Source: Nitrospira sp. (lineage in GTDB: Bacteria > Nitrospirota > Nitrospiria > Nitrospirales > Nitrospiraceae). From it: a stretch of DNA of 64,000 nucleotides. Of this stretch, positions 17,868 to 35,405 are shown in pieces (position 1 is the stretch's first letter; the number at the start of each line of letters is the position of its first letter). The notes under the pieces were generated by a model that ran no database searches, was not told the DNA's origin, and saw only the letters and a program-made list of their open reading frames with translations. Where the stretch lies: positions 62,001-126,000 of the forward strand of contig JAEURX010000018.1 in the NCBI GenBank assembly GCA_016788885.1, written 5' to 3'. The position numbers and the translations under genes are program-made.

Positions 17868-17891
17868 GTTACCCTCCTAGGATCAGTCCGT

Positions 17892-17919
17892 GGGTAGCCC
17901 TCCCTGCGGAGGGCTACCC
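17892..17919 (-). terminator. Perfect 12-bp hairpin after fliC
   Basis: GGGTAGCCCTCC, a 4-base loop and GGAGGGCTACCC form an exact 12-bp stem, 13 bases beyond the fliC stop. No T run follows in the minus direction. It may end most fliC transcripts while allowing some read-through to flaG-fliD, or protect the abundant fliC mRNA 3' end. Confidence 0.6.
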
Positions 17920-17932
17920 GTCGGGTGACGCC

Positions 17933-18760
17933 TTATCCTCGCAGCAGCGCTAACGCTTGCTGTGGCAACGAATTGGCCTGGGCCAAAATTGCGATGCCGG
18001 ATTGGGTGAGGATCTGGTTCTTCGTGAACACAGATGTTTCCTGAGCAATGTCCGCATCTCGAATCCGCGATTCGGCCGCGGTGAAGTTTTCGGCCGTAAC
18101 CGTCAGGTTCTGGATCGCGACTTCGAAGCGGCTCTGGATGGAACCGTAATTCGCGCGGGCGGTTGCCACCGCGCTGATCGCGCTGTCGATCTTGGAAAGC
18201 ATCGATTGCGCGGCTGTCGCCGTCGACACGCTTGCGCCGGTCAAGCCGACCGCCGCTACGTCGAGGTCATCCAAGGCCACGCTCAACGAGTTACCGGATC
18301 CACTCTTGAAGCCGATAAAGACCTCAAACGTGTTGCTGCTTCCGCTCAGAAGCGGCTGACCGTTGTATTCCGTCGTCGTCGAAATGCGATCGATTTCCGA
18401 CCGCAACGCGACAAATTCTTGATCGAGGTAAGAACGCTCGGTCGTTCCCAGCGTCCCGCTGGCCGACTGAGTTGCCAACTCACGCATACGAGACAGCAAG
18501 CTGCCGACCGTCGCCGCGGCACCGTCCGCGACCTGGGTCAAGCTGATGCCGTCACCGGCGTTGCGATTCGCCTGATTGATACTACGAATCTGGGCGCGCA
18601 ACGTTTCCGACACGCCCAATCCGGCCGCGTCATCCGCCGCTCGGGTGATTCGCAGACCAGATGACAACCGCTCAACGGATTTACCCAATTGAGCTTGGTT
18701 GGTCGCCAGGTTTCGCTGAGCTGCCAGTGATGCAACGTTGGTGTTGACTACTAATGCCAT
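17933..18760 (-). CDS. fliC: Flagellin
   Basis: The only flagellin in the window. The 275-residue protein consists almost wholly of the conserved D0/D1 ends: MALVVNTNVASLAAQRNL, then RLSSGLRI; and at the C-terminus ILTQSGIAILAQANSLPQQ. The central variable part (about 140-200) is short and Ser/Thr-rich, with GSSNTFEV and SGSGNSLSVALDD giving possible O-glycosylation sites. The gene has an AGGAGG Shine-Dalgarno, a sigma-28-type promoter and CsrA-type leader sites. The adjacent glycan operon most likely modifies this protein. Confidence 0.97.
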   Translation of the reverse strand: MALVVNTNVASLAAQRNLATNQAQLGKSVERLSSGLRITRAADDAAGLGVSETLRAQIRSINQANRNAGDGISLTQVADGAAATVGSLLSRMRELATQSASGTLGTTERSYLDQEFVALRSEIDRISTTTEYNGQPLLSGSSNTFEVFIGFKSGSGNSLSVALDDLDVAAVGLTGASVSTATAAQSMLSKIDSAISAVATARANYGSIQSRFEVAIQNLTVTAENFTAAESRIRDADIAQETSVFTKNQILTQSGIAILAQANSLPQQALALLRG

Positions 18761-18766
18761 GACGTA

Positions 18767-18776
18767 CTTCCTCCTG
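18767..18776 (-). promoter_or_regulatory. CsrA-type site over the fliC Shine-Dalgarno
   Basis: CAGGAGGAAG on the minus strand contains an A-GGA core that coincides with the ribosome binding site, eight bases before the fliC ATG. CsrA bound here would block translation, as in the Bacillus hag leader. It pairs with the second site about 80 bases upstream. Confidence 0.5.
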
Positions 18777-18848
18777 AAGATTCTGCACTACTCTCGGAGT
18801 CGCCAGCGTCCGTGCCGACGAGGTGGTAAGCAGGTTGGGTGAAGATGT

Positions 18849-18867
18849 GGCCACATCCTCGTTGGCC
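18849..18867 (-). promoter_or_regulatory. Leader hairpin with CsrA-type loop in fliC 5' UTR
   Basis: GGCCA and TGGCC form a perfect 5-bp stem with the 9-base loop ACGAGGATG. The loop plus the next base gives ACGAGGATGT, close to the CsrA consensus RUACARGGAUGU, with the GGA presented in the loop as CsrA prefers. It lies in the roughly 125-base predicted leader. Confidence 0.6.
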
Positions 18868-18890
18868 TGTTTACCGTGTTGCTGTGCCCC

Positions 18891-18918
18891 TTATCGGTAA
18901 TCGACGGGGAAGACTTAA
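18891..18918 (-). promoter_or_regulatory. FliA (sigma-28) promoter of fliC
   Basis: Minus strand TTAAGTCT, 12 bases, ACCGATAA. Fourteen or so positions agree with the sigma-28 consensus, and flagellin is the classic class III target. The predicted transcript leader of about 125 bases contains the CsrA-type hairpin. Confidence 0.75.
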
Positions 18919-18995
18919 GTGCTTCAGGATCTACAGGAAATGTCTGAAACCGGGCGCATTCCGCGCTGCCGAGTCGCAATAGACAACAACGGATA

Positions 18996-19538
18996 CTAAG
19001 CAGCAAGACGGCCCTCGGTCAGCCGAGGCAATAATTCATACTCCAGCAAATCCGCGACATGAATCGCGTCTGCGGTGGTGCGCGCGCCCAACAGTTCTTG
19101 AATCCAAGGTAAGAGCGAGGCTGACGACAGTCCCTCGACACCTTGGGCCTGCCCGGCGTCCAACATTTCCGTGTAGTCAGCCAGGCGTCCCAACCAGGCA
19201 TCAATGGTGCCGATATGGGCGGTGCCGGAACGCAAGGGAGCCAGCAGTACCTGCCCGTCTGTTCGCAGCTCTTTCGCAAAGCGGTCGATGGCCTGTTTCG
19301 CCTCAACGATGATGGTATGCAGCGACTGGGAGACGGCCTGCAGTGCCCCCACATTCCGAGCCGGCTGATTGAGAAACGGCGGAGTGAGATCGCGATCGCT
19401 GATCGGCTTGCCGCCGACGGTCAACGACGTCACAATACGATGTTGGGCATGCGCTCTGTCGCTCAGCGTCGCCAGCACGTTCATCATCGACGTGTCATCC
19501 GACATCTGAAACTGCTCGCCATCAAGGGTGATCAACAT
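18996..19538 (-). CDS. Unknown protein between flagellin and glycan genes
   Basis: I do not recognise this 180-residue protein. It starts MLITLDGEQFQMSDDTSMMN; the ATG has AGGAG seven bases upstream and is preferred to a codon ten residues earlier. It is soluble and mostly helical (LQAVSQSLHTIIVEAKQAID, then SLLPWIQELLGAR), with a beta-rich first 60 residues that include SLTVGGKPISDRDL. No membrane segment or known motif is seen. Lying between the glycosyltransferases and fliC, it could help to present flagellin for glycosylation or regulate filament assembly; this is inference from position only. Confidence 0.75.
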   Translation of the reverse strand: MLITLDGEQFQMSDDTSMMNVLATLSDRAHAQHRIVTSLTVGGKPISDRDLTPPFLNQPARNVGALQAVSQSLHTIIVEAKQAIDRFAKELRTDGQVLLAPLRSGTAHIGTIDAWLGRLADYTEMLDAGQAQGVEGLSSASLLPWIQELLGARTTADAIHVADLLEYELLPRLTEGRLAA

Positions 19539-19580
19539 GGTCAAACTCCTTTGGAAGGTACACAACACTGTCGGGTCACG

Positions 19581-21257
19581 CTACGCAGAGCGCACCATGG
19601 GAAGAGGTCGGGATCCTCCCCGACGGACGAGTCCCTGTGCTCGGTTGAACGAACGGAATCTGCTTGCGACTGCCTGCAGCCGCTTGTGCCATCGTCGATA
19701 GGTGCCCAGCCGGGATTGCGCCAGCTCAGTCAGTTCGCTGCCATCATCATTGTGAGTATCCCGTACCATCGCCACCGCCAGTGAAGCAGTGGCCGGTGTG
19801 TTCATGCTCAGCGCCAGGATCTGTTGCCGTTCCGACGTCTCATCACGTTGCAACTGTTGCAACGCGCTGACCGGCAGCGGGTGTCTGGTCGTAAGGCGGA
19901 CTAGTTCTTCGGCTTTCGCGACCAGCTTTTTTGCGAGAGGCGCCAGATGCTCGAGTACAGCCAGAGCCTCAGCCCAATCGGGAGCCGGTTCGGGATGAGC
20001 AGGAACTTGGCTGGCGCGGCCGGTGAATTCCTCGAACCAGAAGCGGCGCCAAAATCGGCCATACCACTCGATCACCGGATTCTCTCGTCCGGCATGAAGT
20101 TGCGTGCTGCCCAGGCCATCTTCATCGGCGCAGGAGCGATAGATTCTTGCGCCTGTGATCGACTGGGGGAATGCGGCCCCCGCAAGCACGTGCAGGCAGA
20201 GCGAAGCTATCTGCTCAGGCACGAGCCGGTCCTTGCAGGCATGATGAAAACAGACTTTGTCGAACCCGCAGGGAGCGCACCCCAGATCCGGCTGTACCAT
20301 CCAATGGCCTGGTCCATACGGTCCGGTTTCTCGAAAATCGACGTGTCCGACTGACAGGTCGATAACGGGGGTGCCGACTCCCACCGCGAGATGCATCGGG
20401 CCGGTATCGTTGGTCAGCAGGAGCCGGCACTGCGAAAGCACGGCGGCGAGTTGCGGTAACGAGGTCTTTCCCACTGCATCACAGAGCGGAGCGGTTCCCC
20501 CTTGCTGCCGGTACGTTGTCTGAGCGAGGTGGATGGCTTTCCGTTCTTCCTCGGTACCGATAAAGACGTAGCCGACCGGGGCCTGGCGGCTGAGGGCGGC
20601 CAATGTGTGACCGAACAATTCAGGCCGCCATGCTTTCATCGGGTCGCTGGCGCCCACCTGGACCGCCACCCAAGAGATCTGCGCTCCCGCATGAGATGCG
20701 AGAAAGTCGCGCGCCCATTGAGCGGTGTCAGGCGCTAGAGTGAGCGAGAGCGGTGCAAACGGCCCGCTGCCGCTGCCGCCCAGCGCGTAGATGTCGACGA
20801 GATTAAAATGGTTGAAGCGACGCTCATGATGCACATCTGTGAGATACGCCATCCAGGGGTTATGGATGGTCACATCTCCATCCTTCGGGGCCGCGATGCC
20901 GCGTATGTCTTTCGCGCCGACGTATGAGGTCAGCAGTCCGCTCCTGCGGTTGAAGGTCAGGTTCACGACCCGGTCATACCGGGCTTCAACCAACGGTGCG
21001 GCCCACCGGACCATGTCCTGGTAGAGCGTCACGACATCCTTGGTCTGGGCGCGACTTTCATCCACCAGGCGATGAAAATCAAAGCTGACAATGTGCCGCA
21101 GGTGCGGCAGAAGCTTCGCAACGGGAGCGAACCGCTGGTCTACGACCAGATCGACCGCCGCTCCCGGCCATTCGTGCTGGAGGCGCTGAAGCAACGTGCC
21201 CATCTGCACAAGATCGCCCATCCGGGTGATATTGATAAGGAGTACTTGCTGGCTCAT
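19581..21257 (-). CDS. GT9-family (heptosyltransferase-like) glycosyltransferase with helical extension
   Basis: A 558-residue protein. Residues 1-370 resemble GT9 heptosyltransferases: LLINITRMGDLVQMGTLLQR at the N-terminus, WVAVQVGASDPMKAW in the middle, LLTNDTGPMHLAVGVGTPVI for donor binding, then a Cys-containing segment (CAPCGF, CFHHAC). A helical extension of about 190 residues follows that ordinary GT9 enzymes lack. It begins at an ATGA overlap with the preceding gene, so it is translationally coupled. It is a probable flagellin-glycan transferase; the sugar donor is unknown, but heptose fits the HddA/HddC-like genes. Confidence 0.85.
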   Translation of the reverse strand: MSQQVLLINITRMGDLVQMGTLLQRLQHEWPGAAVDLVVDQRFAPVAKLLPHLRHIVSFDFHRLVDESRAQTKDVVTLYQDMVRWAAPLVEARYDRVVNLTFNRRSGLLTSYVGAKDIRGIAAPKDGDVTIHNPWMAYLTDVHHERRFNHFNLVDIYALGGSGSGPFAPLSLTLAPDTAQWARDFLASHAGAQISWVAVQVGASDPMKAWRPELFGHTLAALSRQAPVGYVFIGTEEERKAIHLAQTTYRQQGGTAPLCDAVGKTSLPQLAAVLSQCRLLLTNDTGPMHLAVGVGTPVIDLSVGHVDFRETGPYGPGHWMVQPDLGCAPCGFDKVCFHHACKDRLVPEQIASLCLHVLAGAAFPQSITGARIYRSCADEDGLGSTQLHAGRENPVIEWYGRFWRRFWFEEFTGRASQVPAHPEPAPDWAEALAVLEHLAPLAKKLVAKAEELVRLTTRHPLPVSALQQLQRDETSERQQILALSMNTPATASLAVAMVRDTHNDDGSELTELAQSRLGTYRRWHKRLQAVASRFRSFNRAQGLVRRGGSRPLPMVRSA

Positions 21258-23071
21258 AACAGATCGCGTGTCTCGCTCCGGTATTCATCCAACATCAGCA
21301 CCATCAACTCTTCGCGTTTGAGCGTCGCCGTCGGACCTTTGCCCCGGATGTGCGCCGCCACATCTTTCAATTCGACACGCTGTCCCGCAGGAAGGCCTTT
21401 GAGTAACGTTTCGAGCGGAGTATTCTCAGCACAGCGTTTCAGTAACGAGTCCTGCTGCCGCTCCCCTCGCATCACGGATCCGATGCGGTCCGGCTGAGAC
21501 AACCCGATCTGTCCCAACAAATCGCGCATTCGATGCACATACGTATGGGCGTTCAACACACGTGCGCGAGCGGCATTCGCCATGGCCTGCCGAGCCGCGG
21601 GGTCTGCCAGCCAATGTTGGACCAACCCCGGCACGTCGCCAAAGTCTTTGAATGACACCATCTCCTGTTCACTGAAAAACTCGGGTAGCTGCGAGCGATG
21701 ATCAACCAACTGGAAGGCACCGCAGGCAGCCAGTTCGAAGGTGCGTGGATTCACGAAATCGGCCTGGGGATCCAAGCCTGCGCCAGTGGTGGAGTGCAGA
21801 TTCAGATTGATTGCCGTGGCATTGAATACTTTCATGCAGGTCGCCGTATCGATCCGGGCTCCGTCCAGTTGCAGGACGGAACGGAGATCCCCGGCTCCGT
21901 CCCATTCGTTGCCCCAGAGCTTGAAGGACCAGGGCTGGCTGAGCAGCGCTGGGAACAGTTGGCGGCGATTGGCATACCCGGCACCGACGAACGACACGTC
22001 GGCGCCGAACCGGCGCCGGTCTTCCTCCGACAAGACCAAGGGACAATGCAGATCCGGGTCGGCCGCCATCGGAAGAAAACTGACCTGCCGCGCACCGGCC
22101 TGCCGGAACGCGTCCATACATGCGCCTTGCTGAAACACAAACCAAAATTCGTATCCCGGCGCCATTTGCTGCCAATAGGTCAGATGGCGATAGTTCTCGA
22201 CGAACCACATCGCCGTGAGGAATTTCTTCTTTCGAAGATGTTCGAGGACCTGCAACGTCAACGGAGCCTGTGCCATGGAGAGCACGAGATCCGGAGGTGA
22301 TTCGGCGAGCGTCGCCAAGGTCCATTGGCTCAAGACGTCGGCCATCCGGCCTTGCATCAATTGGCGGTTGCGTGCGTCTTTGAGTGTGCCCATCACCTCA
22401 TAACTCGCCGCATGCACGCTATGATCGATCCACTGCACCTTGTGACCGAGCGTTTCCAATGCCCGTTTCACGTAGCGGGCGATCGGGAGCGATCCTCCGT
22501 AGATCGGGCCCACCAGGGCAATGCTCAGTTGCCCGCCGGCCTGGCGGGCGATCCCCCGTCGCAACGCGTCTTCGAGGGCACAGTGAAACTCGGTATCCCA
22601 GGCGGTCGCCGGTGTATAGGATACACAGCGTAGCGGGCGGCCAGTCGTGCTCAGGCTTTCAGCAATCTCGCTCGGTGATCCCGATAGCCATTGAACCTGT
22701 TCGCTCCAAGACTCGAGTTCGCGTACGGCAAGGGCATCGTGCAATTCACCGAGGTTGGGAATCAGCACAGCCAGCGACACATCAGACGCCAGCGTGTTTC
22801 GAAGGGCCTCGACATGGTAGAGCAACCCTACCCCCGCCACAACGACCGTTTCCCCCGGTTGACAGGCCGGTGCATGGGTCTCAGCCCAGGTTCGCGCTTC
22901 CCGAATGGGATCGTAGGCACTATGAATCCAGCGACCGGCTCGACGCGCTGAAGGGGGACCGCTTTTCGACGGTTCGATCGTGAGCACTCCGCCGGAAGCG
23001 CAGGTGACCGCTGCCGCGAAGTCCTGATTGCGTCTCGCCAGACGCTTGAGATTCTCGTGAAGCAGACTCAT
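21254..23071 (-). CDS. CgeB/GT-B type glycosyltransferase with Maf-like N-terminus
   Basis: A 605-residue protein. The N-terminal part (about 25-110, IHSAYDPIREARTWAE and VVVAGVGLLYHVEAL) recalls the motility-associated factor (Maf) and DUF115 proteins linked to flagellin glycosylation. The C-terminal 400 residues form a GT-B domain of the CgeB/Glyco_trans_1_2 kind, with FVNPRTFELAACGAFQLVD and a helical end. The start at the ATGA overlap with the upstream gene is preferred over a codon eleven residues earlier. It is a likely transferase in the flagellin glycan pathway; acceptor and donor are not evident. Confidence 0.8.
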   Translation of the reverse strand: MSLLHENLKRLARRNQDFAAAVTCASGGVLTIEPSKSGPPSARRAGRWIHSAYDPIREARTWAETHAPACQPGETVVVAGVGLLYHVEALRNTLASDVSLAVLIPNLGELHDALAVRELESWSEQVQWLSGSPSEIAESLSTTGRPLRCVSYTPATAWDTEFHCALEDALRRGIARQAGGQLSIALVGPIYGGSLPIARYVKRALETLGHKVQWIDHSVHAASYEVMGTLKDARNRQLMQGRMADVLSQWTLATLAESPPDLVLSMAQAPLTLQVLEHLRKKKFLTAMWFVENYRHLTYWQQMAPGYEFWFVFQQGACMDAFRQAGARQVSFLPMAADPDLHCPLVLSEEDRRRFGADVSFVGAGYANRRQLFPALLSQPWSFKLWGNEWDGAGDLRSVLQLDGARIDTATCMKVFNATAINLNLHSTTGAGLDPQADFVNPRTFELAACGAFQLVDHRSQLPEFFSEQEMVSFKDFGDVPGLVQHWLADPAARQAMANAARARVLNAHTYVHRMRDLLGQIGLSQPDRIGSVMRGERQQDSLLKRCAENTPLETLLKGLPAGQRVELKDVAAHIRGKGPTATLKREELMVLMLDEYRSETRDLL

Positions 23072-24261
23072 GCGGCCATCGATTCGCAAAGGTCCGGTGC
23101 ACAAGCTCGCCAGATTTCCACTCGCGAGCGTTCGACTGCGTCGTTATCGGAGCCGTCGTCAAAAAATGCTCCCCATCGATCCATCCGACTCCTCCAGAGC
23201 ATCCAATCAGCCGCACTATGATGCTCGTTGCCGCATATCAGCGCGAGACTATCCCTGATCGGCCAGCGTTGAGGTTGTCCATGCGCGGCATGCTGATAGA
23301 CCCAATGCCCTTCGCCATAGGGACCGGTTTCGTGTACGCGGGCACGTGAAAAGTACCATCCTATGGCGCGAGTGCCGACCAGCGTGCCGAGATGAAGCGG
23401 GCCGGTATCGGCGCCGATGACCCAGCGGCATTTCTGAAGGACGCGCATCAACTGGGACACAGTCGTGCGGCCGGTCGCATCCCAGACACGGCCGTGGAGT
23501 AACGTGGGGAGTGAGTCCAGAATCGCTCTCGCTGTTTCACGCTCCGTGCCGCTCCCGATCAGAACGACCTGTCCCTCCCCGGTCTGCGAGAGAAATTCAC
23601 GAATCCATTGGCTCCATACGGTCGGTGGAACACAACGATCCGCCTCCCCTGCTCCCGTGGCCAGCGCAACCCACAATCCGCGGCGCTCACCGATCTCGGT
23701 CAGGTCGTCCGGGAGTTCGACTGCCGGCGGCACATGCAGCGGCGCCTGTCCCCGCGGTCTCACTCCGCACATGCCGCACCAGGCATCAGCGAGATGCACA
23801 CGATTGGCGCCCCGTTCTTTAGCGACGTGTCGCAGATGCTGCGCCCATGGGCGTATGTGCGCCTCGATCAGCTCCTGAGCGGTTTCGCGGGAAGAACGGG
23901 ATGAAAAGAGCTGCGTCATGAGAGAGCTTCGTGCGTGCTGATTGAGTGGATACACCCGTTCATAGGTGGTGTCGCCGAGTGACGCGATATAGGTCTGCAT
24001 GGCCTGCAGGGTATCAGTCGGGTTGTCCTGCCAACGATTGGCCCAGGCCTGCCATTGCGCCCCGTTCCAGGGAATGACGCGGCGGATATGACGGGCTCCC
24101 GTCAGGACTGCGATCAGGGGTGCGGCGCAGACGACATCCAATGTCCGTTCGGGATAGGCTTCCTGCAACGCCTCGATCGCGGGAAGCGTTTGCACCAGAT
24201 CGCCCAATCGGGCCAACTGGATCACCAGATCGTGGTGCTCCGGTGAGACCTCATGCGGCAT
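23068..24261 (-). CDS. GT9-family (heptosyltransferase-like) glycosyltransferase
   Basis: A 397-residue GT9 protein: VIQLARLGDLVQTLPAIEAL at the N-terminus, LWVALATGAGEADRCVP in the middle, and WVIGADTGPLHLGTLVGTRA for donor binding. It lacks the long C-terminal extension of the GT9 protein at 19.6-21.3 kb. Its start overlaps the end of the giant glycosyltransferase gene by 11 bases and its end overlaps the next gene by ATGA, indicating coupled translation. Confidence 0.86.
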   Translation of the reverse strand: MPHEVSPEHHDLVIQLARLGDLVQTLPAIEALQEAYPERTLDVVCAAPLIAVLTGARHIRRVIPWNGAQWQAWANRWQDNPTDTLQAMQTYIASLGDTTYERVYPLNQHARSSLMTQLFSSRSSRETAQELIEAHIRPWAQHLRHVAKERGANRVHLADAWCGMCGVRPRGQAPLHVPPAVELPDDLTEIGERRGLWVALATGAGEADRCVPPTVWSQWIREFLSQTGEGQVVLIGSGTERETARAILDSLPTLLHGRVWDATGRTTVSQLMRVLQKCRWVIGADTGPLHLGTLVGTRAIGWYFSRARVHETGPYGEGHWVYQHAAHGQPQRWPIRDSLALICGNEHHSAADWMLWRSRMDRWGAFFDDGSDNDAVERSRVEIWRACAPDLCESMAA

Positions 24262-27200
24262 GGTTCGGCACCAGGGGGCGTTCGGGTTCGGCGAGGTGTT
24301 TTGCCAACTCGTCCATGCCCTCGAACGTCGGGACTATGGCACGCAACCAGTCATATTCTCGCCGCGCATCTGCTCGACGTCCTGCTCTCAAGAGTACTCC
24401 GGCCAGGGCAAAACGCATAGCGATATTGCCTGGATTGCGGGCAAGAAATGAGGCGAGGCTCGACGCCAGGGCATCCCAGCGTTGGAGCATCGTGCCGCAT
24501 TTGAGCATCCAATGCATGCATTCTTCGTCATCGGGATGATCGGCACACAGATCTGCTACGTGAGACCAGGCGGCCTCAGCCCGATTGTCACCCATCGCCG
24601 CCATGACCAGGCCTAGCATGGCCTTCCGAGGATTCGCGCCGGATTGTTTCGCCCGTTCGAACGCCTGTTCCGCGTCGCGATAGGCATTGAGCTGCATGGC
24701 AAGAATGCCGCGCAGGAGCCACCCTTCCCCATGTGCCGGTTCTGTCTGCAGCAGCGCAGTCACATGATTATCCGCTTCTTTCATGGCGCCGGTTTCCAAT
24801 GCCTGTTTCGCCAAAGCCAATCGAGCCTGCGGATCATTTTTCAACTGAAGCACACGTCTCCAGATAGGAGAGGCCAGTTCTGGATGGCCGATACTTTCAC
24901 TGAGTGACGCCCCCCAGCGAAGAATCCAGACATCGTCAGGCCACTGGTCGACGTGCGAAAGCAACGCGACCATTTTTTGCTGATCCTTGCTCGCCGTCGC
25001 CCGCTGGAGGTCGGCGACGAGTGCCCGTTCCGCCCGAACCGCGGGATCGGTAATGAGGTACAGCGTGTACCCGAGGAGGCGCTCTTTGAGATGGGTATGC
25101 ACAGAATAGCCATCGTCGAAGTGCAACCGATCTTCGTCCGTCACCCACCAGCAACGGCCCCAGCGCTCCCGAAAACGGATGGTGTTCTCTTCGTCGTGTG
25201 TCTTCCGTCCGGGTGTACGGCTTTCCAAATGAATGACCGTGCTCTGAGGCTGGTAGACGATTTTCCAGTTCTTTTCACCCAGTTTGAGACACAGATCGAC
25301 GTCTTCGAATCCGTTCTTGTAGCCCTCATCGAATCCCCCGACCTGCGCGAATGCCTGCCGGCGGATGAGCATGCAGGCGGCGGTGACGCATTGCAGCTCG
25401 CGGCGGCGCGAGACAAAGGGCGCGTCTGCCGGAACTCCCGGATACATATGGTAGGGCATCAGGAACTCACGCGAGAATGCGACTCCCGCATGTTGAATCG
25501 TGCCGTCTTCATACAACAGTTTGCTTCCCACTACCGCCACATCGGAATGGGCCTGTACCTCGTCGACAAGGGCGCTGAGCCATCCAGCCTGCGGAATGGT
25601 ATCGTTGTTCAGGAACACGAGGTATTCACCTTTGGCCGCCCGAGCCCCTTGGTTGCAGGCTTTCGCAAATCCGAGGTTCTCGTCGTTGGTGATCACGGTG
25701 ACATCGCCACTCAGGCCGGCGAGAAACGCCGGAGTTCCGTCCGTCGAGTGGTTATCCACCAGGATGACTTCGTAGGAGACGCCGTGCGTGACCTCCGCCA
25801 GAGCCATCAAACATTGCGTGGTGAGGGCCAGGTTGTTCCATACGGGAATGATAATGGAGCAATCGAACGTCTTGGCTTGGGCGTCGGATCGCATGCCTTC
25901 CAATTTCTTTTGCTGCGCCTCCAGCACGCCGGCTATGCGATCCGTATACGGCCGGTATTTTCTATAGATGATTTCGGTCGTGCGTCGGTAGGTGTCGCTC
26001 GTGCTGCTGGTCATCGATGACCCATCGCGACGCCAAGTGAACGCCGCGGTGGTGTGCTTGATGTGGAGAAACGGATAGATCGTCGCCATCCGGATCCAGA
26101 GATCCCAATCTTCATGCGCGAACAGCGATTCGTCGAACATGCCAACCTGTTCGAGGCAGGCTTTTTCATGCATGACACAAAGCACCGGGAAATAGTTGCA
26201 CAACAGAAGATCGATACAGTTGAAGTCGTGCGAATACGGGATATCTCGTCCGGTCACCACGTATTGATCGCCCTGCCGTACTTCATGGATACGCCAGGCA
26301 TCCGTATAGGCGAACTTATGCTCGCCGCCTTGTAGGGCCGTGACCAGGGTGTGCAGATGGTCCGGGAGGTAGGTGTCATCGTCGTCGAGATAGGCAATAT
26401 AGATGCCTTTGGCTGCCCGAATTCCCGTATTGCGAGCCGCTGCCAGTCCACGGTTGTGATCGTGCCGGATCGTCGTGATACGACCGTTCTTATTGAGCGG
26501 GGCGATCACCTCGTTCACATCAACCGTACCGTCGTTGACGACGATGATCTCAAAATCCTGATACGTTTGGGCCAGCACACTATTGAGCGCGACCTGCAAT
26601 CGCTCAGGCCGATTGTATGTGGGCACGATGACGGAGACCATCGGCGGACGCGTAAACGAAAGCACGGGTGAGGCACCCCGACGCTGACAGGCCCATATCT
26701 GATAGATGGGTACGAGCGTCTGCTTGGCAAAATCGGCCGGGGTCGGCGCAGGGATATATCGCAGCGAGGGAATTTCGCAGTGCACCCGCTCCAGGCCGAG
26801 TTCAGAGAATCCTTGCGTCGTGAAGATGTCACGCAGTTGTGCTTCTGTGACCCAATCCTCAACCGGTTGACTGGGTGGCGCGATCGTTTTCCACTGTTCC
26901 CACATCTCTCCGCGGGGTGTCGTCAGAATGACATAGCCATCCGGCTTCAGGAGCATGCCCAATTCCGCGACAAATTCCTCTTTCCGGCCGTGCGGAATAT
27001 GTTCGATGACTTCGGAGCAGAGGATGACATCGTAGGGCGCAAAATCCGGTCGAGTGAGCACATTCTGAGCAACGCCCACTTCGAACCGTAAGTGCGGAAA
27101 CAACCGCCGCGCGTGCTCGATCACGCCAGCTACGGGCTCGATGCCTTCGCAGGTGCCATACGCCGTCGCCAAGTTCGTCAGCCAACCGCGCCCGCATCCG

Positions 27201-30200
27201 ACATCCAGGATGCGCAGTTGCCGGTCAGGATCCGCCTGACGCACGCGGCGAAGCAGATATTCCAGAAATGCAGCGATCTTGCTCCAACGCGCTGCTTCCT
27301 CATGGTTGGGGCCAGGAGAAGACCACCCCCGACTGTTGACGAACATGTCGATGTAAAATTGATCCTGCTGTTTCTGCTCTTGAGGCGTCGGCGCCGAATC
27401 CGGTAAGGCTCGACGGCCTGCCGAGGCTAGCGGTGCATGATTCAACCCGTCCATCACGACCCCTTTCGTTTCGACCTGTCGCCTTGAAGAGGGCGATGCT
27501 CCTAAGGATTCGGCTCGCGCCAAGAGATGGCGGAATTGTTCACGAAGCGCGTCACGGCGCTGCGCGATGAAAACCGGTGTGGCAAAGGAATGGGAGATCG
27601 GCCGGCCCTCGACCAATGCTTCCCAGGCCGTTAACACGGTCGTCCAATCATGCGATTGCGCCCAGTGCTCTCGACCAAGCCGACCGAGCTCCGCACAGAA
27701 CTCTGGATGCTGCTTGAGCAACCGTACGGCAGGGCCGAAGTGCGACAGAGGAAGCACCAGTCCGCCGGCGTGCTCAGTGGCTGTTCCACAATCCGGCGTG
27801 GCGAGCCATGGTCGGCCAGCGCTCATCGCCTCCAGCAGGCAGAGCGGCGAGACTTCCGCATGCGAGGCCAGCACCACGAGATCAGCTGCAGTCAACGCCG
27901 AGGCGACATCGGCGTAATCCAAGCCTGCAAGCAGCCGGACATCCGGTCGGGACGTCAGGCGGGCCTTCACGGCCTCGACGTACTCGATATCAGGCGTGTC
28001 ATTCCCGATCAAGACCAGTTGAACCCCTTGAGGAAGCTGCTCCAGTGCATCGAGCAACCCCAGATGATTTTTGACGGTGTAGAGATTGGCGAGGTGAATC
28101 ACCAGGAATGTCTCGCGGGCGATCCCGTATCTCTGTCTGAAATCCTCCTTGGGCGCGAGTGTCGCAGTGCCGTTCGGAATGACGCAGGTCGGAATGTTTC
28201 GTTCGCGAAAAAACTGTTCATCGTATCCCTTGCCGCCGAACGTGACGACGGCGTGCACCCGTTTCCCCAATTGGGACAACATGGCCCGCCCCTGCTCGCT
28301 CCCCTGCAACGATTCATCAATTTCTTTGTTGATCGTGGGTTGTAGAATGAATCGCGTGGGGCAATTCTTCGAAATTGCCAGGGGGGCATAAAACATCAGA
28401 TGCAGCGGGGCACCGAGCAGGATACAGGCTCCGTATTGCCCCGATTCAAGCAACCGCTTCACTTCCAGCAGGGAGTGGCGGCTGGTGGTTTCAAAATCGT
28501 CGGGGAAGGTGAGATCAATGATGGGAATGTCACGATGCGATTTCGCCTTGCGCACAGAGAGCGCATAGGTCGCGACTTCGACGGCATGCCCCCGAGATTT
28601 CAAGCCGATGGCGAGTGTCTCCGCCACTTTTTCCACACCGCCTACGGACGGCCAAAAATAGGGCGTGACGATGAGAATGCGCATCGCCGCATGCGTTTTC
28701 GACTGCGGCGATGCGGCAGGACTCACGAGTGTCCGCAGTGTCGACGTTTTCTCGACAGTCGTCTCCTTTTTCCAATGGACTTCCTCTGGCGTCAGAGGTC
28801 TATTCGTGACCGGGGTCGTGCTGCGGTTGGCATCATAGGGCTGGCTCACCGGCGGAGTGTGGCGGAACAGCCGTGAGAAGACGTCCAGTTCCTTCAGAGC
28901 ATAGTCTCGCGCATCTTTTTCACGGTCGACTGAGCGAGGCCCCTCGATAATCCCATGTGCAGCACCAAGCAGGGCAAACAGCGCCAGTTGATCTCCTGTC
29001 GCTCGAAACTGGTCTGCTTTTCGCCGGATGTCGGAGGTCAGGGTATTCCACTGACGGATGTCCTTTTCATACATCGTCTTATACCGACGGTAGATGGTCT
29101 CCGGTGTGTAGACAGTTCCGTGCCGGCCCAGGACCTCCGGATGCAGGATCCAGCGCACGCCGCGCTGACCCATCTGTTCGAGCAAATCCATCTCACTCGC
29201 CTTGACATTCTGGAAGGCGAAGGGCTTCATGGCCGCCGTGCGATAGATTTTGATGCCTTGAATCGGGCAGGCGCGATCCTCATCGAAGAGATGAAAACAG
29301 ATCATACCGACGTCGGCGGGCGCGCGCCGCATCGCGGTTTCCATCGTTGTGACGGCATCGGGATTGAGCATCATGTCTTCATCAACTTGGATGAAGTACT
29401 CGCTCCTGCAATCCGCGATCATTTTCTGAGCCGCTGCGCTGAACGGGGTGACGTTGCGGATGATCTCGACGCGAAACGGACCGCCCTGCTGGGCATCCAC
29501 TGCCGCCTTGCAGGCCGGATACGCCGGATCGTCGACCGTCAGCACATACACCGTGGTGGCCGGCGTTGATGGCAGCTCTCTCGTACCTGGTGCATGTTTC
29601 TGCAGGATCTCTTTCGCCCCCGCTGAGCCGTCCACTCCGGCTGCTGTGTCGGCCCCCTCGCGATTGAAACTGGGCACCTGCCCCGTCTGAATCCATGACA
29701 GCAGTTGCCATGCACGGTATTCCGAGGTATGCGATCGGAGCACTTCTGCCCGCGCTGCGCCGGCGAGTGCTTGTGCGTAGTCGGCATCATCCGCCACCCG
29801 AGCGAGATGGTCTGCCAGTACGGCTGGCTGGTCTTTGGGATACAACAAAATCTCCTGCCCATCCCGGAACAGGCTCTTGGTAAGCGGCCGGCCTTGAATC
29901 TCCCACGAAATTGCCGGCCGCCCTGCTGCCATCGCTTCCACCACACGCCCGGCATAGGCTTGAAAGAGACTCGGGAGATTGACGATCGCGCTCCAGCGTT
30001 TCAGACTTGTCAGCCAATTAACAAAGATCTCCTCCCTCAATTGGCGACACTGACCGACATATTCCGTCAACGCGACCTGATCTGGCCGCCCCCGCTGCAA
30101 CTGTCCGGCCATGCGCTGGTGTAAGAGATCGAACCGTGCAGGGAATTCCGTTCCGGTTTCGGCCGATGGAGGGTGGACCAGTCGATCTTTCAGGCGCGGA

Positions 30201-30784
30201 TGTTTCAGCCAGGTATTCCTCTCCCCATAGAGTTCTCCATAAAACGCCGCTTCACGGCGAACCGGTTGCGCGATGGTCGGTGTGACAAAACGAGCAGGCA
30301 CGGCCTGGAGCCAGAAAGTAGCGCGGGTGCGTCCCGCTTCGTTGAATGCCTCAGCATCCAACTCGTCCGCCGACAGGATATGCGTCATATATCTTGCCTG
30401 ACGCTCCACGAACTCCAGCCGTTCTCCTAAATGAGGCCAGCGGCGGCAGTCTTCCTCGCTATACCGCAGCGACTCCATGAGGACGCCGACTCGCACAGGG
30501 GCTAACCCGGCCACCCATTCCAGAAACCCCTCAGAATAGCGATTATGGACGAGCCAGACCCATACCTGGTCGAACTGTTGACCGGCGAGAAGCGACTTGG
30601 CGTGATACAGCCAAGACTGTGGGGACGTATCCGAGACATGGGCCAGTGCCGGGAGAGTCACACAGTCGCACCCATTGGCTCGAAGTCCGTCCTCGACGGC
30701 GAAATTGCCCACGTAGGACCAGGCTTTCGCTTGCGCCCACGTGTCAAACTCCAATTGCACCAGCAGAATTTTTGGCTGTGCCAT
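24251..30784 (-). CDS. Giant multi-domain glycosyltransferase with internal methyltransferase and TPR tail
   Basis: A single frame of 2177 residues from the ATG with GGAGA five bases upstream (a GTG six codons earlier is less likely). Domains by position: CgeB-like GT-B (about 1-370); GT-A-like domain with VDEDMM (about 410-640); GT4 (about 700-1070, PYFWPSVGGVEK, later EAMSAG); SAM methyltransferase (about 1155-1300, ILDVGCGRG); GT2 (about 1380-1590, VIVPTYNRPE and LDDDD); second GT2 (about 1640-1890, LNNDTIPQAG); TPR-like helices (about 1910-2160). It could build several linkages of one glycan on a single scaffold. No signal or membrane segment is seen, so it acts in the cytoplasm, consistent with flagellin modification before export. 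Confidence 0.88.
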   Translation of the reverse strand: MAQPKILLVQLEFDTWAQAKAWSYVGNFAVEDGLRANGCDCVTLPALAHVSDTSPQSWLYHAKSLLAGQQFDQVWVWLVHNRYSEGFLEWVAGLAPVRVGVLMESLRYSEEDCRRWPHLGERLEFVERQARYMTHILSADELDAEAFNEAGRTRATFWLQAVPARFVTPTIAQPVRREAAFYGELYGERNTWLKHPRLKDRLVHPPSAETGTEFPARFDLLHQRMAGQLQRGRPDQVALTEYVGQCRQLREEIFVNWLTSLKRWSAIVNLPSLFQAYAGRVVEAMAAGRPAISWEIQGRPLTKSLFRDGQEILLYPKDQPAVLADHLARVADDADYAQALAGAARAEVLRSHTSEYRAWQLLSWIQTGQVPSFNREGADTAAGVDGSAGAKEILQKHAPGTRELPSTPATTVYVLTVDDPAYPACKAAVDAQQGGPFRVEIIRNVTPFSAAAQKMIADCRSEYFIQVDEDMMLNPDAVTTMETAMRRAPADVGMICFHLFDEDRACPIQGIKIYRTAAMKPFAFQNVKASEMDLLEQMGQRGVRWILHPEVLGRHGTVYTPETIYRRYKTMYEKDIRQWNTLTSDIRRKADQFRATGDQLALFALLGAAHGIIEGPRSVDREKDARDYALKELDVFSRLFRHTPPVSQPYDANRSTTPVTNRPLTPEEVHWKKETTVEKTSTLRTLVSPAASPQSKTHAAMRILIVTPYFWPSVGGVEKVAETLAIGLKSRGHAVEVATYALSVRKAKSHRDIPIIDLTFPDDFETTSRHSLLEVKRLLESGQYGACILLGAPLHLMFYAPLAISKNCPTRFILQPTINKEIDESLQGSEQGRAMLSQLGKRVHAVVTFGGKGYDEQFFRERNIPTCVIPNGTATLAPKEDFRQRYGIARETFLVIHLANLYTVKNHLGLLDALEQLPQGVQLVLIGNDTPDIEYVEAVKARLTSRPDVRLLAGLDYADVASALTAADLVVLASHAEVSPLCLLEAMSAGRPWLATPDCGTATEHAGGLVLPLSHFGPAVRLLKQHPEFCAELGRLGREHWAQSHDWTTVLTAWEALVEGRPISHSFATPVFIAQRRDALREQFRHLLARAESLGASPSSRRQVETKGVVMDGLNHAPLASAGRRALPDSAPTPQEQKQQDQFYIDMFVNSRGWSSPGPNHEEAARWSKIAAFLEYLLRRVRQADPDRQLRILDVGCGRGWLTNLATAYGTCEGIEPVAGVIEHARRLFPHLRFEVGVAQNVLTRPDFAPYDVILCSEVIEHIPHGRKEEFVAELGMLLKPDGYVILTTPRGEMWEQWKTIAPPSQPVEDWVTEAQLRDIFTTQGFSELGLERVHCEIPSLRYIPAPTPADFAKQTLVPIYQIWACQRRGASPVLSFTRPPMVSVIVPTYNRPERLQVALNSVLAQTYQDFEIIVVNDGTVDVNEVIAPLNKNGRITTIRHDHNRGLAAARNTGIRAAKGIYIAYLDDDDTYLPDHLHTLVTALQGGEHKFAYTDAWRIHEVRQGDQYVVTGRDIPYSHDFNCIDLLLCNYFPVLCVMHEKACLEQVGMFDESLFAHEDWDLWIRMATIYPFLHIKHTTAAFTWRRDGSSMTSSTSDTYRRTTEIIYRKYRPYTDRIAGVLEAQQKKLEGMRSDAQAKTFDCSIIIPVWNNLALTTQCLMALAEVTHGVSYEVILVDNHSTDGTPAFLAGLSGDVTVITNDENLGFAKACNQGARAAKGEYLVFLNNDTIPQAGWLSALVDEVQAHSDVAVVGSKLLYEDGTIQHAGVAFSREFLMPYHMYPGVPADAPFVSRRRELQCVTAACMLIRRQAFAQVGGFDEGYKNGFEDVDLCLKLGEKNWKIVYQPQSTVIHLESRTPGRKTHDEENTIRFRERWGRCWWVTDEDRLHFDDGYSVHTHLKERLLGYTLYLITDPAVRAERALVADLQRATASKDQQKMVALLSHVDQWPDDVWILRWGASLSESIGHPELASPIWRRVLQLKNDPQARLALAKQALETGAMKEADNHVTALLQTEPAHGEGWLLRGILAMQLNAYRDAEQAFERAKQSGANPRKAMLGLVMAAMGDNRAEAAWSHVADLCADHPDDEECMHWMLKCGTMLQRWDALASSLASFLARNPGNIAMRFALAGVLLRAGRRADARREYDWLRAIVPTFEGMDELAKHLAEPERPLVPNHAA

Positions 30785-30808: not shown

Positions 30809-32698
30809 TTAGGCCGCCATTTTTTGGCGTAGCCGTACCACCATCTGGTCGAATTCAACGAGCGCCGGATCCGGAAGAAGCTGTGGCCGACAGGCATCGT
30901 AATAGGACACTGCCGCGTGGTAGGCCCCTTGCTCACAAAGCCCCACCAAACGCTCCATGAATGCACGCACCTCACCTTGGGCATTGTGACGGACCTCCGC
31001 CTCGACCGATCCTCCCCTAGCAAGACCCGGAGAAGTCAGTGCCACCGGCGCCTCGCCCACCACTTCTTCGGTCTCCAGCGGGACCATCACGCCCTTCTCT
31101 TTTGTAACCGGCACATTGAGCCGGACGCGCTTAGAGCAGTGCGCACACCCTGCCACGACTTGTAGTCCATGCACAGGAACACGCTTCGGCTCTGTCAACT
31201 CCACATAGGAGAAACCACGAAGGCAATGCGGGCACTCTGCGAAAAGCTCCCAGAACTGCCGGGTTCCATTCAGCGTCATGGGATTGGTGATCGCTCGAAT
31301 CAGAATCCGGCTGACATCTACGGTGCGACAGAGCGACAAGGCTTCGAGGGCATGGATGGACCGCACATACCCAACCCACTGCGCATCGGTCATGGTGGTC
31401 ATATTGAATAGTTTTTGATCGATCGTTTTGTAAAACGCTTCCTTATCAGGGATCAGCCCTTTCTCTTGGCACGCGACGTACAATGTACTGCCGGGGTAGG
31501 GTTGGATCGCTGCCAGATAGCAATGGATATCGGCGCAATACTTTCGGTAGAACGTGAGCGTTTCCGAGATCGTTTCCGGAGTTTCTGCCGGGTCGCCAAA
31601 AATAAAATTCCCGCCGAACCCAATTCCCACTTGGTCCGCCAGGGCGATCGCCTCGGCATACTGTTCAGGCTGCGTACCCTTTTTCATGCTCTTGAGTACT
31701 CGCTGACTCGCGCTTTCCATGCCATAGCTAAAGTAGGTACACCCAGCCTGCTGAGCCAATTGCAACGCCTCTAGATTGAGTCTGGCGTTTGCGTGCGTTT
31801 GAAACTGCCAATCGAAATCCCACCCGTATCGCTCACGGTATTCGATTAGCGTACGGCAGAACTCATCCAGTTTCTGCTTGTTGACGGCAAAGAGTTCGTC
31901 GAGAACCATGAGAATGTTGAACGAATGCGATTCATACAGTTGCTTAATTTCCGCCATGACATTTTCAGTCGTTCGGGCGCGGTATTTGGCGCGTCCCCCA
32001 TGCCCATGCAAGCAGAAGGTGCAGGCGAATGGACATTCTCTCGCCGTCACAATCGGCATAATTCGGGGATTGTTACGGGTGTAGCGAAACAGTGGTCTGG
32101 CACCCCATGAGGAATCCAACATCTTTTCAATGTCGAAAATCGTATAGTCCGGAAACGGCTGCTCGTTCAGATCGCCTCCGAACTTGAGATTCTTTTCTGT
32201 AAACACCAGGCGACCATTGTTCGGATAGCAGAGATTAGGAATGGCGTTGAGGTCACCGCGCCCCTGCAGTGCATTCAAGAGCATGACTGCCGTCTCTTCG
32301 GCTTCGCCTGCCAGCGAATAATCCGGCTTGAGCGTGGAATGAATAAACTCCTGGTCGTAGGTGATGATGGAGCCCCCCATGAGCACCGGAACGGTCGGCG
32401 CGTAATGGCGGATGATGCTCATCGCGTCTTGCAAAAACGGATAGTCAGTGCAAATTCCCCCTACGCCGATCATGTCCGGCTTGGTTTCGGCAATGGCCTG
32501 CGCAATTCTGTCGTGGATCATGTCGAATGCCGAGGCATAGCCTGGTGCATTGTTGGGGTTGCAGCCAAACACCTGATGTCCCGCCGCTTTCAACGCCGCG
32601 GCGATGTAGGCAAATCCACAGGAGAAATCAGACGCCGCCAGAAATGAAGGATATTGCGTTGTGTATCGGTAAGTGGGGGGAATCAGTAACACCTTCAT
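30809..32698 (-). CDS. B12-binding-type radical SAM protein with C-terminal zinc-knuckle
   Basis: A 629-residue protein. A cobalamin-binding-type N-terminal domain (about 1-150; GVGGICTDYPFLQ, VLMGG) precedes the radical SAM core with the 4Fe-4S ligands C222, C226 and C229 (CPFACTFC). A later section has paired C489/C492 and C518/C521 (CPHC, CAHC) suggestive of a small zinc ribbon, and the last 70 residues are helical. Such enzymes methylate or rearrange unactivated carbons. Lying directly upstream of the giant glycosyltransferase, it probably modifies a sugar or the glycosylated protein. Substrate unknown. Start chosen by AAGGAGG seven bases upstream. Confidence 0.88.
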   Translation of the reverse strand: MKVLLIPPTYRYTTQYPSFLAASDFSCGFAYIAAALKAAGHQVFGCNPNNAPGYASAFDMIHDRIAQAIAETKPDMIGVGGICTDYPFLQDAMSIIRHYAPTVPVLMGGSIITYDQEFIHSTLKPDYSLAGEAEETAVMLLNALQGRGDLNAIPNLCYPNNGRLVFTEKNLKFGGDLNEQPFPDYTIFDIEKMLDSSWGARPLFRYTRNNPRIMPIVTARECPFACTFCLHGHGGRAKYRARTTENVMAEIKQLYESHSFNILMVLDELFAVNKQKLDEFCRTLIEYRERYGWDFDWQFQTHANARLNLEALQLAQQAGCTYFSYGMESASQRVLKSMKKGTQPEQYAEAIALADQVGIGFGGNFIFGDPAETPETISETLTFYRKYCADIHCYLAAIQPYPGSTLYVACQEKGLIPDKEAFYKTIDQKLFNMTTMTDAQWVGYVRSIHALEALSLCRTVDVSRILIRAITNPMTLNGTRQFWELFAECPHCLRGFSYVELTEPKRVPVHGLQVVAGCAHCSKRVRLNVPVTKEKGVMVPLETEEVVGEAPVALTSPGLARGGSVEAEVRHNAQGEVRAFMERLVGLCEQGAYHAAVSYYDACRPQLLPDPALVEFDQMVVRLRQKMAA

Positions 32699-32767
32699 GC
32701 AACGGCCTCCTTGAAAGGTCTCATGTCGTGTTGCCCCGCTTGACTGTCACAGCATGCGTCGATTGAG

Positions 32768-34303
32768 TCACAGCGTGCGGGACGCGCAGGCTGCCGGAGC
32801 AGATGGTCGACGAATTAACTTGCGTGCCGTCATCGCTTGCACGTGTTGAACTGTCCCTTCATCGAATCGCTCCGCCAACATGGCTCGGTATTCCGGCCGA
32901 TCGAAATACGCCTGGAATGCCTTATCGCGGAAGGCGAGCACCTCCGTTGCCGGGAGATGGCGCGTCGGGAGCGGGAGTGAATCGATGGCATGTTGAGAAT
33001 ATGCCGTCCACGAGTCAGGCAATGGCCATCCCTCGTCCAAGGCGCGTTGGTACAGGGAAGAACCGGGGTACGCCATAGTGCAATAAAAGTTGGCGAACTC
33101 GCAGTTCAGATCGATAGCCAAATCGAGAGTGGCCTGCATCGTCTCATAGTCGTCTTCCGGCAAACCAAAGATGTAATTGGCGATGACATTGATGCCGGCC
33201 GCTCGTACTTTGTGAATTGTCCGTCCAATTTGATCTTGTTCGAACGTTTTCAATACATCGTTTCGCACCTTCGCACTGCCGGACTCGATGCCGAAACAGA
33301 GCCACCGGACGCCGGCACGGACCAGTAGGTCCTCCATGCCGTCCTTCACCGAATCGACCCGGGCATAGGCCCAAATGTTCAGATCGTATCGGCGCTCGAT
33401 CAGGAGCTGACACAGTTCGGCCACATGCCGTCGATTGAGCACAAACATTTCATCAGCAAACTTGATGTTGCGGATCCCGTATTGTATGACCAGTCGATCG
33501 ATGTCGGCCACGATCGTCGCCGGTGACCAAAACCGGTAGCTGTTGACTTCCGTGCGATACCCGAGGGCCGCCTCCCCGCTCTTGAATGGCGCTTGAATAC
33601 AACAGTACGAACAATGATACGGACAGCCCAGAGTGGTGTAGAGCGAGGCATAGGGGCTGCGTCGGTCGAGGGATCCGAAGCAGTGCCAATTGTGGGCGCG
33701 ATACCGATTCATCGGCAGGAGATCCCATGCCAATCCAGGCATCTCTTCGTCTAAGCGTTCGATATTCGGCGCCGGATCTGATTTGAGAATTGCGCTGTCG
33801 CTTCGGTAATACAATCCCCGTACTCGACTCCACTCGCTGGAGCCACCTTTCAAGGCAGCGATCAAGTCGGTGATCGTGTACAGCCCCTCTCCACCGCAAA
33901 CAAAATCAGCGTCCTCTTCGCGCAAGGTGCGTTCCGGAAGCGCTGCAACATGCCCCCCCAACAGCAAGACCTTACTCACAAGACCGTGTGTTTTGATGGC
34001 TCGGCAGATTGCTCCGGCCGACGGCATGATCTGCGTCGAAGCGGAAGGATTGTGTCCGTAGACCAGGACCACCACGAGGCGAGGCGCAAGCGTCTCCACT
34101 CGAGTAGCCACCTCCGTGGGCAGTAGGTCTTCCGCATTGGCGTCGAGAACTTCTACTGTAATCCCCCGACGACGCAGGAATGTGGCGATGAGTCCTCCCC
34201 ATACGGGAGGCTCAATTGCGCTCAGGCTGCTCCCGAGCTCCTGATATATCTGTGTCCGACTTCCGGGATTCACCAAAAGCACATCGAGGACGGGCTGTGA
34301 CAT
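32768..34303 (-). CDS. B12-binding-type radical SAM protein
   Basis: A 511-residue protein with a cobalamin-binding-type N-terminal domain (about 5-150; VLLVNPGSR, LLLGGHVAALPE) and a radical SAM core with C227, C231 and C234 (CPYHCSYC). The TIM-barrel motif FGIESGSAKVR and the C-terminal YPGSSLY segment are typical of class B enzymes. It differs in sequence from the neighbouring radical SAM protein and lacks its Cys knuckles. GGAGG precedes the ATG by nine bases. It is placed between the split transketolase and the other radical SAM gene, so it probably acts on the same sugar pathway. Confidence 0.88.
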   Translation of the reverse strand: MSQPVLDVLLVNPGSRTQIYQELGSSLSAIEPPVWGGLIATFLRRRGITVEVLDANAEDLLPTEVATRVETLAPRLVVVLVYGHNPSASTQIMPSAGAICRAIKTHGLVSKVLLLGGHVAALPERTLREEDADFVCGGEGLYTITDLIAALKGGSSEWSRVRGLYYRSDSAILKSDPAPNIERLDEEMPGLAWDLLPMNRYRAHNWHCFGSLDRRSPYASLYTTLGCPYHCSYCCIQAPFKSGEAALGYRTEVNSYRFWSPATIVADIDRLVIQYGIRNIKFADEMFVLNRRHVAELCQLLIERRYDLNIWAYARVDSVKDGMEDLLVRAGVRWLCFGIESGSAKVRNDVLKTFEQDQIGRTIHKVRAAGINVIANYIFGLPEDDYETMQATLDLAIDLNCEFANFYCTMAYPGSSLYQRALDEGWPLPDSWTAYSQHAIDSLPLPTRHLPATEVLAFRDKAFQAYFDRPEYRAMLAERFDEGTVQHVQAMTARKLIRRPSAPAACASRTL

Positions 34304-34317: not shown

Positions 34318-35334
34318 TTAGTAGGCGGCGCCGTGTGGCGCCATATGGGTCGAGACTGGCTGCACGCCCTTGGCCTTCTCATGGTCTCCACGCACCCAAC
34401 CGGCAATACGTGAGACGACAGCGCCGACATCCAGGCCATATTTTTCCCAAATCGCCTGGCGCCCGCCGTAATCAAAAACGAATCGATCGTCCTGTCCGAT
34501 TCGCATCGTCGGAATGTGTCTATCCTCATCGATCATCCATTCGGCGACGAGGCTGCCCAAGCCACCAGCCAGCAAATGCTCCTCAAGGGTTACGACGCGG
34601 GCAACATTCTTCAAGTACTGCTTCAAGGCATGGCCATTGAGCGGCTTCAACCGGAACACGTCGATCACTCCCACGTTCAGGCCCGCACTCTCGTGCAGGA
34701 GATCGGCTGCCGCCAACGCCTGATGCACCATCACGCCGGATGTCAGGATGCAGACGTCATCTCCTGACCGCAGCTGTGTCAGTCCCTGCGCGATCTCAAT
34801 ACGGCGTCCCGCGTACACTTCTGGGAGGCCGGCGCGATCAAAGCGGATGTATTGAGGCGATCGGTCGTGATGCACTACCGAGGCGAGCTCGGCTGCGCTA
34901 GTCCCGTCGGCCATGCTGTAGATCTTCAGGTTGGGAAGGGCACGCATGATGGAGACATCCTCCACCGTGTGATGGCTCGGCCCCATAATGTCGTAGGCAT
35001 ACCCGGCCCCCACGCCGATCAGGACGATCGGAAGATTCATGGCGCATACGTCCAATTTGACCTGTTCGTAGCAACGCAAGCTGACGAATGGGGCGATGGC
35101 ATAGACGTACACTTTCTTTCCCTCGAAGGCCATGCCGCAGGCCATGCCGATCAATTGTTGCTCCGCGATCCCGACGTTGAAGAACCGATCGGGAAAGTCG
35201 CGGGCGAACTGATCGAGCGTGGGTGCCCCGTTATCGGCCGTGATGAAAATCGCCTGGGGGTCTTCTTGGAACAACTTATACAATTCGTTGAAGAACTGAT
35301 CCCGCATACCTAATATGAACTTGGTCGATCCCAT
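34318..35334 (-). CDS. Split transketolase, C-terminal (pyrimidine-binding) subunit
   Basis: A 338-residue protein corresponding to the Pyr and C-terminal domains of transketolase. The catalytic Glu is in NVGIAEQQLIGMACG; a His-rich loop IMGPSHHTVEDVS and a terminal domain starting ILTSGVMVHQAL follow. It must pair with the TPP-binding half encoded immediately upstream. The enzyme transfers a two-carbon ketol group, and could supply sedoheptulose 7-phosphate for heptose or add a two-carbon branch to a keto sugar. Its place in the glycan operon shows it is not simply the housekeeping enzyme. Confidence 0.88.
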   Translation of the reverse strand: MGSTKFILGMRDQFFNELYKLFQEDPQAIFITADNGAPTLDQFARDFPDRFFNVGIAEQQLIGMACGMAFEGKKVYVYAIAPFVSLRCYEQVKLDVCAMNLPIVLIGVGAGYAYDIMGPSHHTVEDVSIMRALPNLKIYSMADGTSAAELASVVHHDRSPQYIRFDRAGLPEVYAGRRIEIAQGLTQLRSGDDVCILTSGVMVHQALAAADLLHESAGLNVGVIDVFRLKPLNGHALKQYLKNVARVVTLEEHLLAGGLGSLVAEWMIDEDRHIPTMRIGQDDRFVFDYGGRQAIWEKYGLDVGAVVSRIAGWVRGDHEKAKGVQPVSTHMAPHGAAY

Positions 35335-35405
35335 GGATGCTTCCTTTCGTCATCGACGAGGTTGTCGTAGGGCTGTCCGCCCATGGCGTTCGGATGGTCT
35401 GGGGG

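Follow-up and report, generated by a model that had tools for sequence, protein, structure and literature searches.

The giant gene and its flagellar neighbourhood

The window analysed here is the whole stretch of 64,000 nucleotides, whose source genome was identified as Nitrospira from its named relatives. On its minus strand lies a single unbroken frame of 2177 aa, which runs from an ATG at position 30784 to a stop at 24251. A GGAG-type ribosome site precedes this ATG, and a GTG at 30802, six codons upstream, is another possible start. Relatives from the same genus match the protein at full length with 77-80% identity and without frameshifts, which confirms the frameshift-free frame of 2177 residues claimed in the preliminary description. 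The same-strand neighbours (radical SAM, giant glycosyltransferase, GT9, CgeB and GT9) overlap or nearly touch, and the second GT9 gene is followed downstream by genes for a 190-aa protein, flagellin, FliD and FliS. The principal genes, with the evidence for each, are:

30809-32698, minus strand: B12-binding radical SAM enzyme, directly upstream of the giant gene, tracks the type A N-terminal module described below (Pfam; Fisher p 2.6e-4)
24251-30784, minus strand: giant glycosyltransferase gene, 2177 aa (open frame, full-length relatives, ribosome site)
23068-24261, minus strand: GT9-type glycosyltransferase, overlaps the stop of the giant gene (Pfam; synteny)
21254-23104, minus strand: second CgeB-like GT-B glycosyltransferase, 616 aa (Pfam; synteny)
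19581-21257, minus strand: second GT9-type glycosyltransferase, 558 aa (Pfam; synteny)
18996-19568, minus strand: conserved 190-aa protein (u190), located between the second GT9 and flagellin in most Nitrospira loci
17933-18760, minus strand: flagellin, 275 aa, D0-D1 only, presumed acceptor (Pfam; alignment)

The u190 protein has no match in Pfam or NCBIfam. In the alignment, the central part of the flagellin is short and contains conserved Ser/Thr residues. Since this flagellin is short and consists of D0-D1 only, the part that D2/D3 domains would play at the surface could fall to glycans. Sugar-nucleotide genes upstream of the giant gene encode an HddA-like kinase, an HddC-like nucleotidyltransferase, a transketolase in two parts, an SDR of the epimerase type and an aminotransferase similar to PseC. 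The split transketolase pair (34318-36326, minus strand), which may serve to make a longer or branched sugar, is patchy among relatives (seen in loci L033, L039 and L077). Two B12-binding radical SAM enzymes adjoin the giant gene (30809-34303, minus strand).

The block of giant glycosyltransferase, GT9, CgeB, GT9, u190, flagellin, FliD and FliS is kept across Nitrospira. Among the loci with enough sequence, flagellin is found downstream of the giant gene in 39 of 40, nearly always at a distance of 5.2-5.8 kb (9.1 kb in one locus). In 61 genomes of the order, the core of the giant protein (residues 1380-2177) and flagellin occur together in 33 genomes and are both missing from 23, with four genomes having flagellin only and one the core only; these counts are not independent, because the genomes are related. 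Two of the 33 genomes were counted through a match to the TPR region inside a frame of ~1.4 kaa. Flagellin thus accompanies the core in 33 of 34 core-bearing genomes, and the contig of the single core-only genome stops before the expected flagellin position. The four genomes with flagellin alone are small or fragmented.

This linkage bears on a reading in which the product is a surface polysaccharide or a lipid-linked glycan and the protein owes its place in a flagellar cluster to history. Several modules do come from polysaccharide-making families, and the flanks examined around distantly related GT2a-GT2b proteins of Ignavibacteria and Bacteroidetes contain no flagellar genes. However, the synteny with flagellin, FliD and FliS is fixed across Nitrospira, presence and absence follow flagellin, a giant glycosyltransferase of Brocadia also lies beside FlgK-FlgL-FliW, and we noticed no gene for membrane export within the Nitrospira block. 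We regard this reading as improbable.

Module structure and active sites

The giant protein is composed of seven modules, in the N- to C-terminal order CgeB-like GT-B, GT-A, GT4, methyltransferase, GT2a, GT2b and TPR (all on the minus strand):

29651-30784 (aa 1-378): module 1, CgeB-like GT-B, exchangeable N-terminal module of type A (Pfam PF13524; identity break at 375-400; incongruent trees)
28865-29572 (aa 405-640): module 2, GT-A fold glycosyltransferase, DED 468-470, H555 (model, fold search, invariant motif)
27599-28672 (aa 705-1062): module 3, GT4-type GT-B, E977-x7-E985 (Pfam PF13692/PF00534; conserved Glu pair)
26750-27397 (aa 1130-1345): module 4, class I SAM methyltransferase (Pfam PF13489; conserved glycine motif)
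25880-26647 (aa 1380-1635): module 5, GT2a, GT-A, DDDD 1467-1470, HEDWD 1557-1561 (Pfam PF00535; model; closest to oligosaccharide-type GT2)
25085-25864 (aa 1641-1900): module 6, GT2b, GT-A, NND 1726-1728, EDVD 1827-1830 (Pfam PF00535/PF13641; polypeptide GalNAc-T/GmaR-like)
24290-25045 (aa 1914-2165): module 7, TPR-like helical superhelix, proposed flagellin-binding tail (model; TPR matches in PDB profile search)

The Pfam matches to Glyco_trans_1_2 (CgeB-like), Glyco_trans_1_4, Methyltransf_23 and two copies of Glycos_transf_2 were all above the cut-off. Together with a GT-A fold at residues 405-640 and a modelled TPR superhelix, they establish the previously claimed set of five glycosyltransferases, one methyltransferase and one TPR region. 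Residues 405-640 have no Pfam match, and no glycosyltransferase turned up when the sequence of module 2 was compared with PDB, so that its identity is visible by fold search alone. The model of this module (mean pLDDT 74.6, best over the first 160 residues) has a GT-A fold, with a Foldseek E value of 1.5e-8 to a fucosyltransferase and a best Z of 17.2 in VIA (150 residues, 2.2 Å rmsd). Its VDEDMM metal motif had been called atypical, which proved incorrect: the QVDEDM segment contains an ordinary DXD motif (D468-E469-D470), and this canonical Asp-Glu-Asp is invariant in 25/25 aligned sequences.

The model of the core (mean pLDDT 90.7, pTM 0.68) contains two GT-A domains followed by a superhelix of helical hairpins (residues 1914-2165), and the protein ends ~12 residues past it. 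The TPR tail falls below the Pfam cut-off, yet the superhelix is clear in the model (pLDDT ~95 over the helices) and the profile of the region matches solved TPR proteins in PDB. The TPR-like tail is therefore real, as had been proposed, and may bind flagellin.

Catalytic residues are at least 97% identical among 25-86 sequences per module. The conserved sites include E283 in the N-terminal module, the DED and H555 of the GT-A module, E977 and E985 of GT4, the glycine motif of the methyltransferase, DDDD and HEDWD in GT2a, and NND and ED (1827-1828) in GT2b. The active site of every module is intact, and from sequence all modules look live.

The two GT2 modules differ in their kinship. The GT2b profile matched polypeptide GalNAc-transferases (E 1e-10), the flagellin GlcNAc-transferase GmaR (2e-8) and the peptide S-glucosyltransferase SunS (4e-5), whereas the GT2a profile favoured oligosaccharide transferases and found GmaR and GalNAc-transferases only at 2e-3 or weaker. 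For residues 259-528 of the core model, most of the listed structure matches were GalNAc-transferases (Z 21.5-23.2, ~240 residues), with some non-protein glycosyltransferases within 1-2 Z units of them. By profile and model, GT2b is the module closest to protein-modifying enzymes. Because it resembles protein O-glycosyltransferases, GT2b plausibly primes flagellin, and with the TPR region alongside it is the strongest candidate for transferring the first sugar, as GmaR does.

The same two modules could instead alternate as a polymerase in the manner of K4CP, heparosan synthase and Klebsiella O7 ORF6 and synthesise a chain of repeats on flagellin or a lipid, with the methyltransferase as cap and the other modules adding a primer or side groups. 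Indeed, the chain has two GT-A domains, as in the dual-GT2 polymerases. Foldseek ranked K4CP and heparosan synthase highest for the GT2a-GT2b core, and the GT2b sequence has its strongest match in K4CP, a polysaccharide-making chondroitin polymerase. GT2a-GT2b pairs also occur repeatedly in other phyla, where they lack the Nitrospira TPR tail, and the single chain of Klebsiella O7 ORF6 carries a methyltransferase followed by two polymerase GT2 modules (PMC11231755). Nevertheless, the placement of the two domains appears to differ from K4CP and heparosan synthase (rmsd 12-23 Å over both domains, the domain placement in the model being uncertain at pTM 0.68), GT2b leans to protein-modifying enzymes, and neither a coiled-coil ruler nor a kinase was seen. 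The flagellin linkage and the TPR tail better fit a protein acceptor, and we consider a polymerase unlikely.

Variation and exchange of modules among relatives

The C-terminal GT2a-GT2b-TPR part is common to nearly all Nitrospira versions of the protein, and the modules preceding it differ:

CgeB-GTA-GT4-MT before the core: 2.15-2.2 kaa (window protein)
CgeB-MT before the core: ~1.45 kaa
MT24-CgeB-MT before the core: ~1.8 kaa
CgeB-GT2-MT before the core: 1.8 kaa (N. defluvii, locus L059)
without methyltransferase: 1.6 kaa (N. moscoviensis, locus L091)

The family is thus a mix-and-match one, with a constant GT2a-GT2b-TPR end and varying N-terminal modules. The GTA cassette occurs in 10 of the 148 genomes drawn from the phylum, always within a frame of 2146-2196 aa. 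Locus L093 encodes, beside flagellin, a 3496-aa protein with three tandem GT2b-TPR units (12500-22987), as well as a separate stand-alone GT-A module (9974-11128). Natural splits between GT4 and the methyltransferase are found in L078 and L080, and L089 may be either a natural split or a frameshift; the overlapping frames of L085 are probably a frameshift and were left out of the natural splits. The methyltransferase is missing from L083 and L091.

The splits, the stand-alone GT-A gene and the methyltransferase-free relatives show that the modules need not be fused. Flagellin might then be the substrate of a scaffold, with certain modules silent or acting in trans, rather than of a one-protein assembly line. 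The near-invariant catalytic residues in all modules speak against silent modules, and we give this version little credence.

Related proteins outside Nitrospira carry other domains. In other phyla, a B12-radical SAM domain is fused to a three-GT2 protein related to the core (L096, L097), and a sulfotransferase domain precedes three related GT2 domains in L107 (8187-11726). Brocadia, from another phylum, has giant CgeB-GT2x4-TPR proteins with a similar module set (L101, 43-18268) and a FlgK-FlgL-FliW cluster with TPR and methyltransferase genes (L103, 1029-13555). Phage relatives were uninformative, with matches to the GT2 part at 28-30% only among the matches listed.

The N-terminal glycosyltransferase of the window protein shares 67-70% identity with that of distant Nitrospira (cores ~55%) and only 43% with that of near relatives (cores ~90%). 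In loci L005-L010, which are near relatives, identity to the window protein rises from ~25-58% before residues 375-400 to mostly 70-100% after them. Type A N-terminal modules form one clade of 13 sequences (support 95) in the N-module tree and are scattered over the core tree with seven changes, all forced by well-supported branches. AU tests rejected two constrained trees: an N-module tree that keeps a core-defined group of eight together (p 1e-42) and a core tree that does the same for type A (p 1.4e-5). The N-terminal module and the core therefore do not share a history, with at least seven changes between them. An assembly chimera is an unlikely source of the break, since many genomes show the same pattern, among them one complete chromosome (L040, CP092081) and one independent MAG (L033). 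The GTA cassette required five changes on the core tree and had no clear association with the type of N-terminal module (carried by 6/12 type A and 13/36 other relatives).

The upstream radical SAM gene is present in 7/10 type A loci versus 1/22 others (Fisher p 2.6e-4), two of the seven being short matches. A functional need of this enzyme for the type A module is weakened by these short matches, by three type A loci without the gene and by L041, which has the gene with another module type. The pairing may be a simple joint transfer of neighbouring DNA. Whole-module exchange within a flagellin-linked giant glycosyltransferase is an additional finding that we did not find described in our literature search, and it looks new.

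A proposed flagellin glycosylation system

Bacterial protein O-glycans are usually built by separate enzymes. The modules, their adjacency to flagellin and the single-domain swaps among relatives suggest that the giant protein probably builds a varying sugar chain on the flagellum. The preliminary description of a flagellin oligosaccharide assembly line agrees with the linkage to flagellin, FliD and FliS, the co-occurrence across 61 genomes, the intact sites and the kinship of GT2b; its atypical motif did not stand. We infer flagellin as the acceptor, the TPR tail as its binding site, GT2b as the priming enzyme, a C-to-N order of action and the sugars; hook-associated proteins may be other acceptors. 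The C-terminal TPR tail would hold flagellin, as in FlmG, GT2b would add the first sugar to Ser/Thr and GT2a the next, and the methyltransferase would methylate. The GT4, GT-A and N-terminal CgeB modules would add outer sugars, aided by the operon's own GT9 and CgeB enzymes. In this order, the constant C-terminal part would make the inner glycan and the exchangeable N-terminal part the outer glycan, which would vary between lineages because recombination adds, removes and swaps N-terminal modules. A cytoplasmic multi-module glycosyltransferase dedicated to flagellin, with constant inner and exchangeable outer modules working from C to N, is as a whole the explanation we find reasonably probable. 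The stricter proposal, that one chain primes, extends, methylates and caps a flagellin oligosaccharide which Nitrospira diversify by recombining glycosyltransferase modules together with matching sugar-tailoring genes, is put forward tentatively, at slightly less than even chances.

Several known systems contain parts of this design. FlmG of Caulobacter is a cytoplasmic flagellin glycosyltransferase that also combines TPR and a separate GT domain in one chain, and the TPR domain binds flagellin for the GT domain (PMC7591256). However, FlmG has 596 aa, one GT-B domain and an N-terminal TPR and transfers one pseudaminic acid, in contrast to the five glycosyltransferases, methyltransferase and C-terminal TPR of the giant protein. 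In GmaR of Listeria (PMC9638930), a GT2-fold flagellin GlcNAc-transferase domain akin to GT2b is likewise followed by TPR, but this 637-aa protein has a single GT and a C-terminal antirepressor domain for MogR, of which we noticed no counterpart in the giant protein. The C. difficile type B flagellin GT2, CDR20291_0242, joins a GT2 and a methyltransferase in one protein; it adds two rhamnoses to flagellin-bound GlcNAc and is proposed to methylate them, whereas a separate enzyme, GT1, adds the first sugar and neither GT-B modules nor TPR are reported (PMC5207246). In Klebsiella O7 ORF6, a single chain has a methyltransferase ahead of two GT2 modules at the C-terminal end, and module inactivation shows the separate action of each (PMC11231755); it makes a lipid-linked O-polysaccharide and has a kinase and a coiled-coil without TPR. 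Enterobacterial flagellin GT41 enzymes include GT-methyltransferase fusions within flagellin glycosylation islands, but have a GT41 (SPINDLY-type) fold and a single GT (PMC4875605). The single elements are thus known from FlmG, GmaR, the C. difficile GT2 and Klebsiella O7, and their combination with module exchange appears to be new.

In the literature searched, no paper on flagellin glycosylation in Nitrospira was found. The host of this giant protein, encoded beside the flagellin gene, is a nitrite-oxidising Nitrospira bacterium, and the module list differs between cultured Nitrospira, which makes the relation of module order to glycan structure directly testable. The protein also offers natural parts for programmable protein glycosylation. 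The module differences suggest that nitrifier flagella are under diversifying pressure from phage or grazing. If the assembly-line reading is true, module recombination would diversify the flagellar glycan, much like the products of modular megasynthases.
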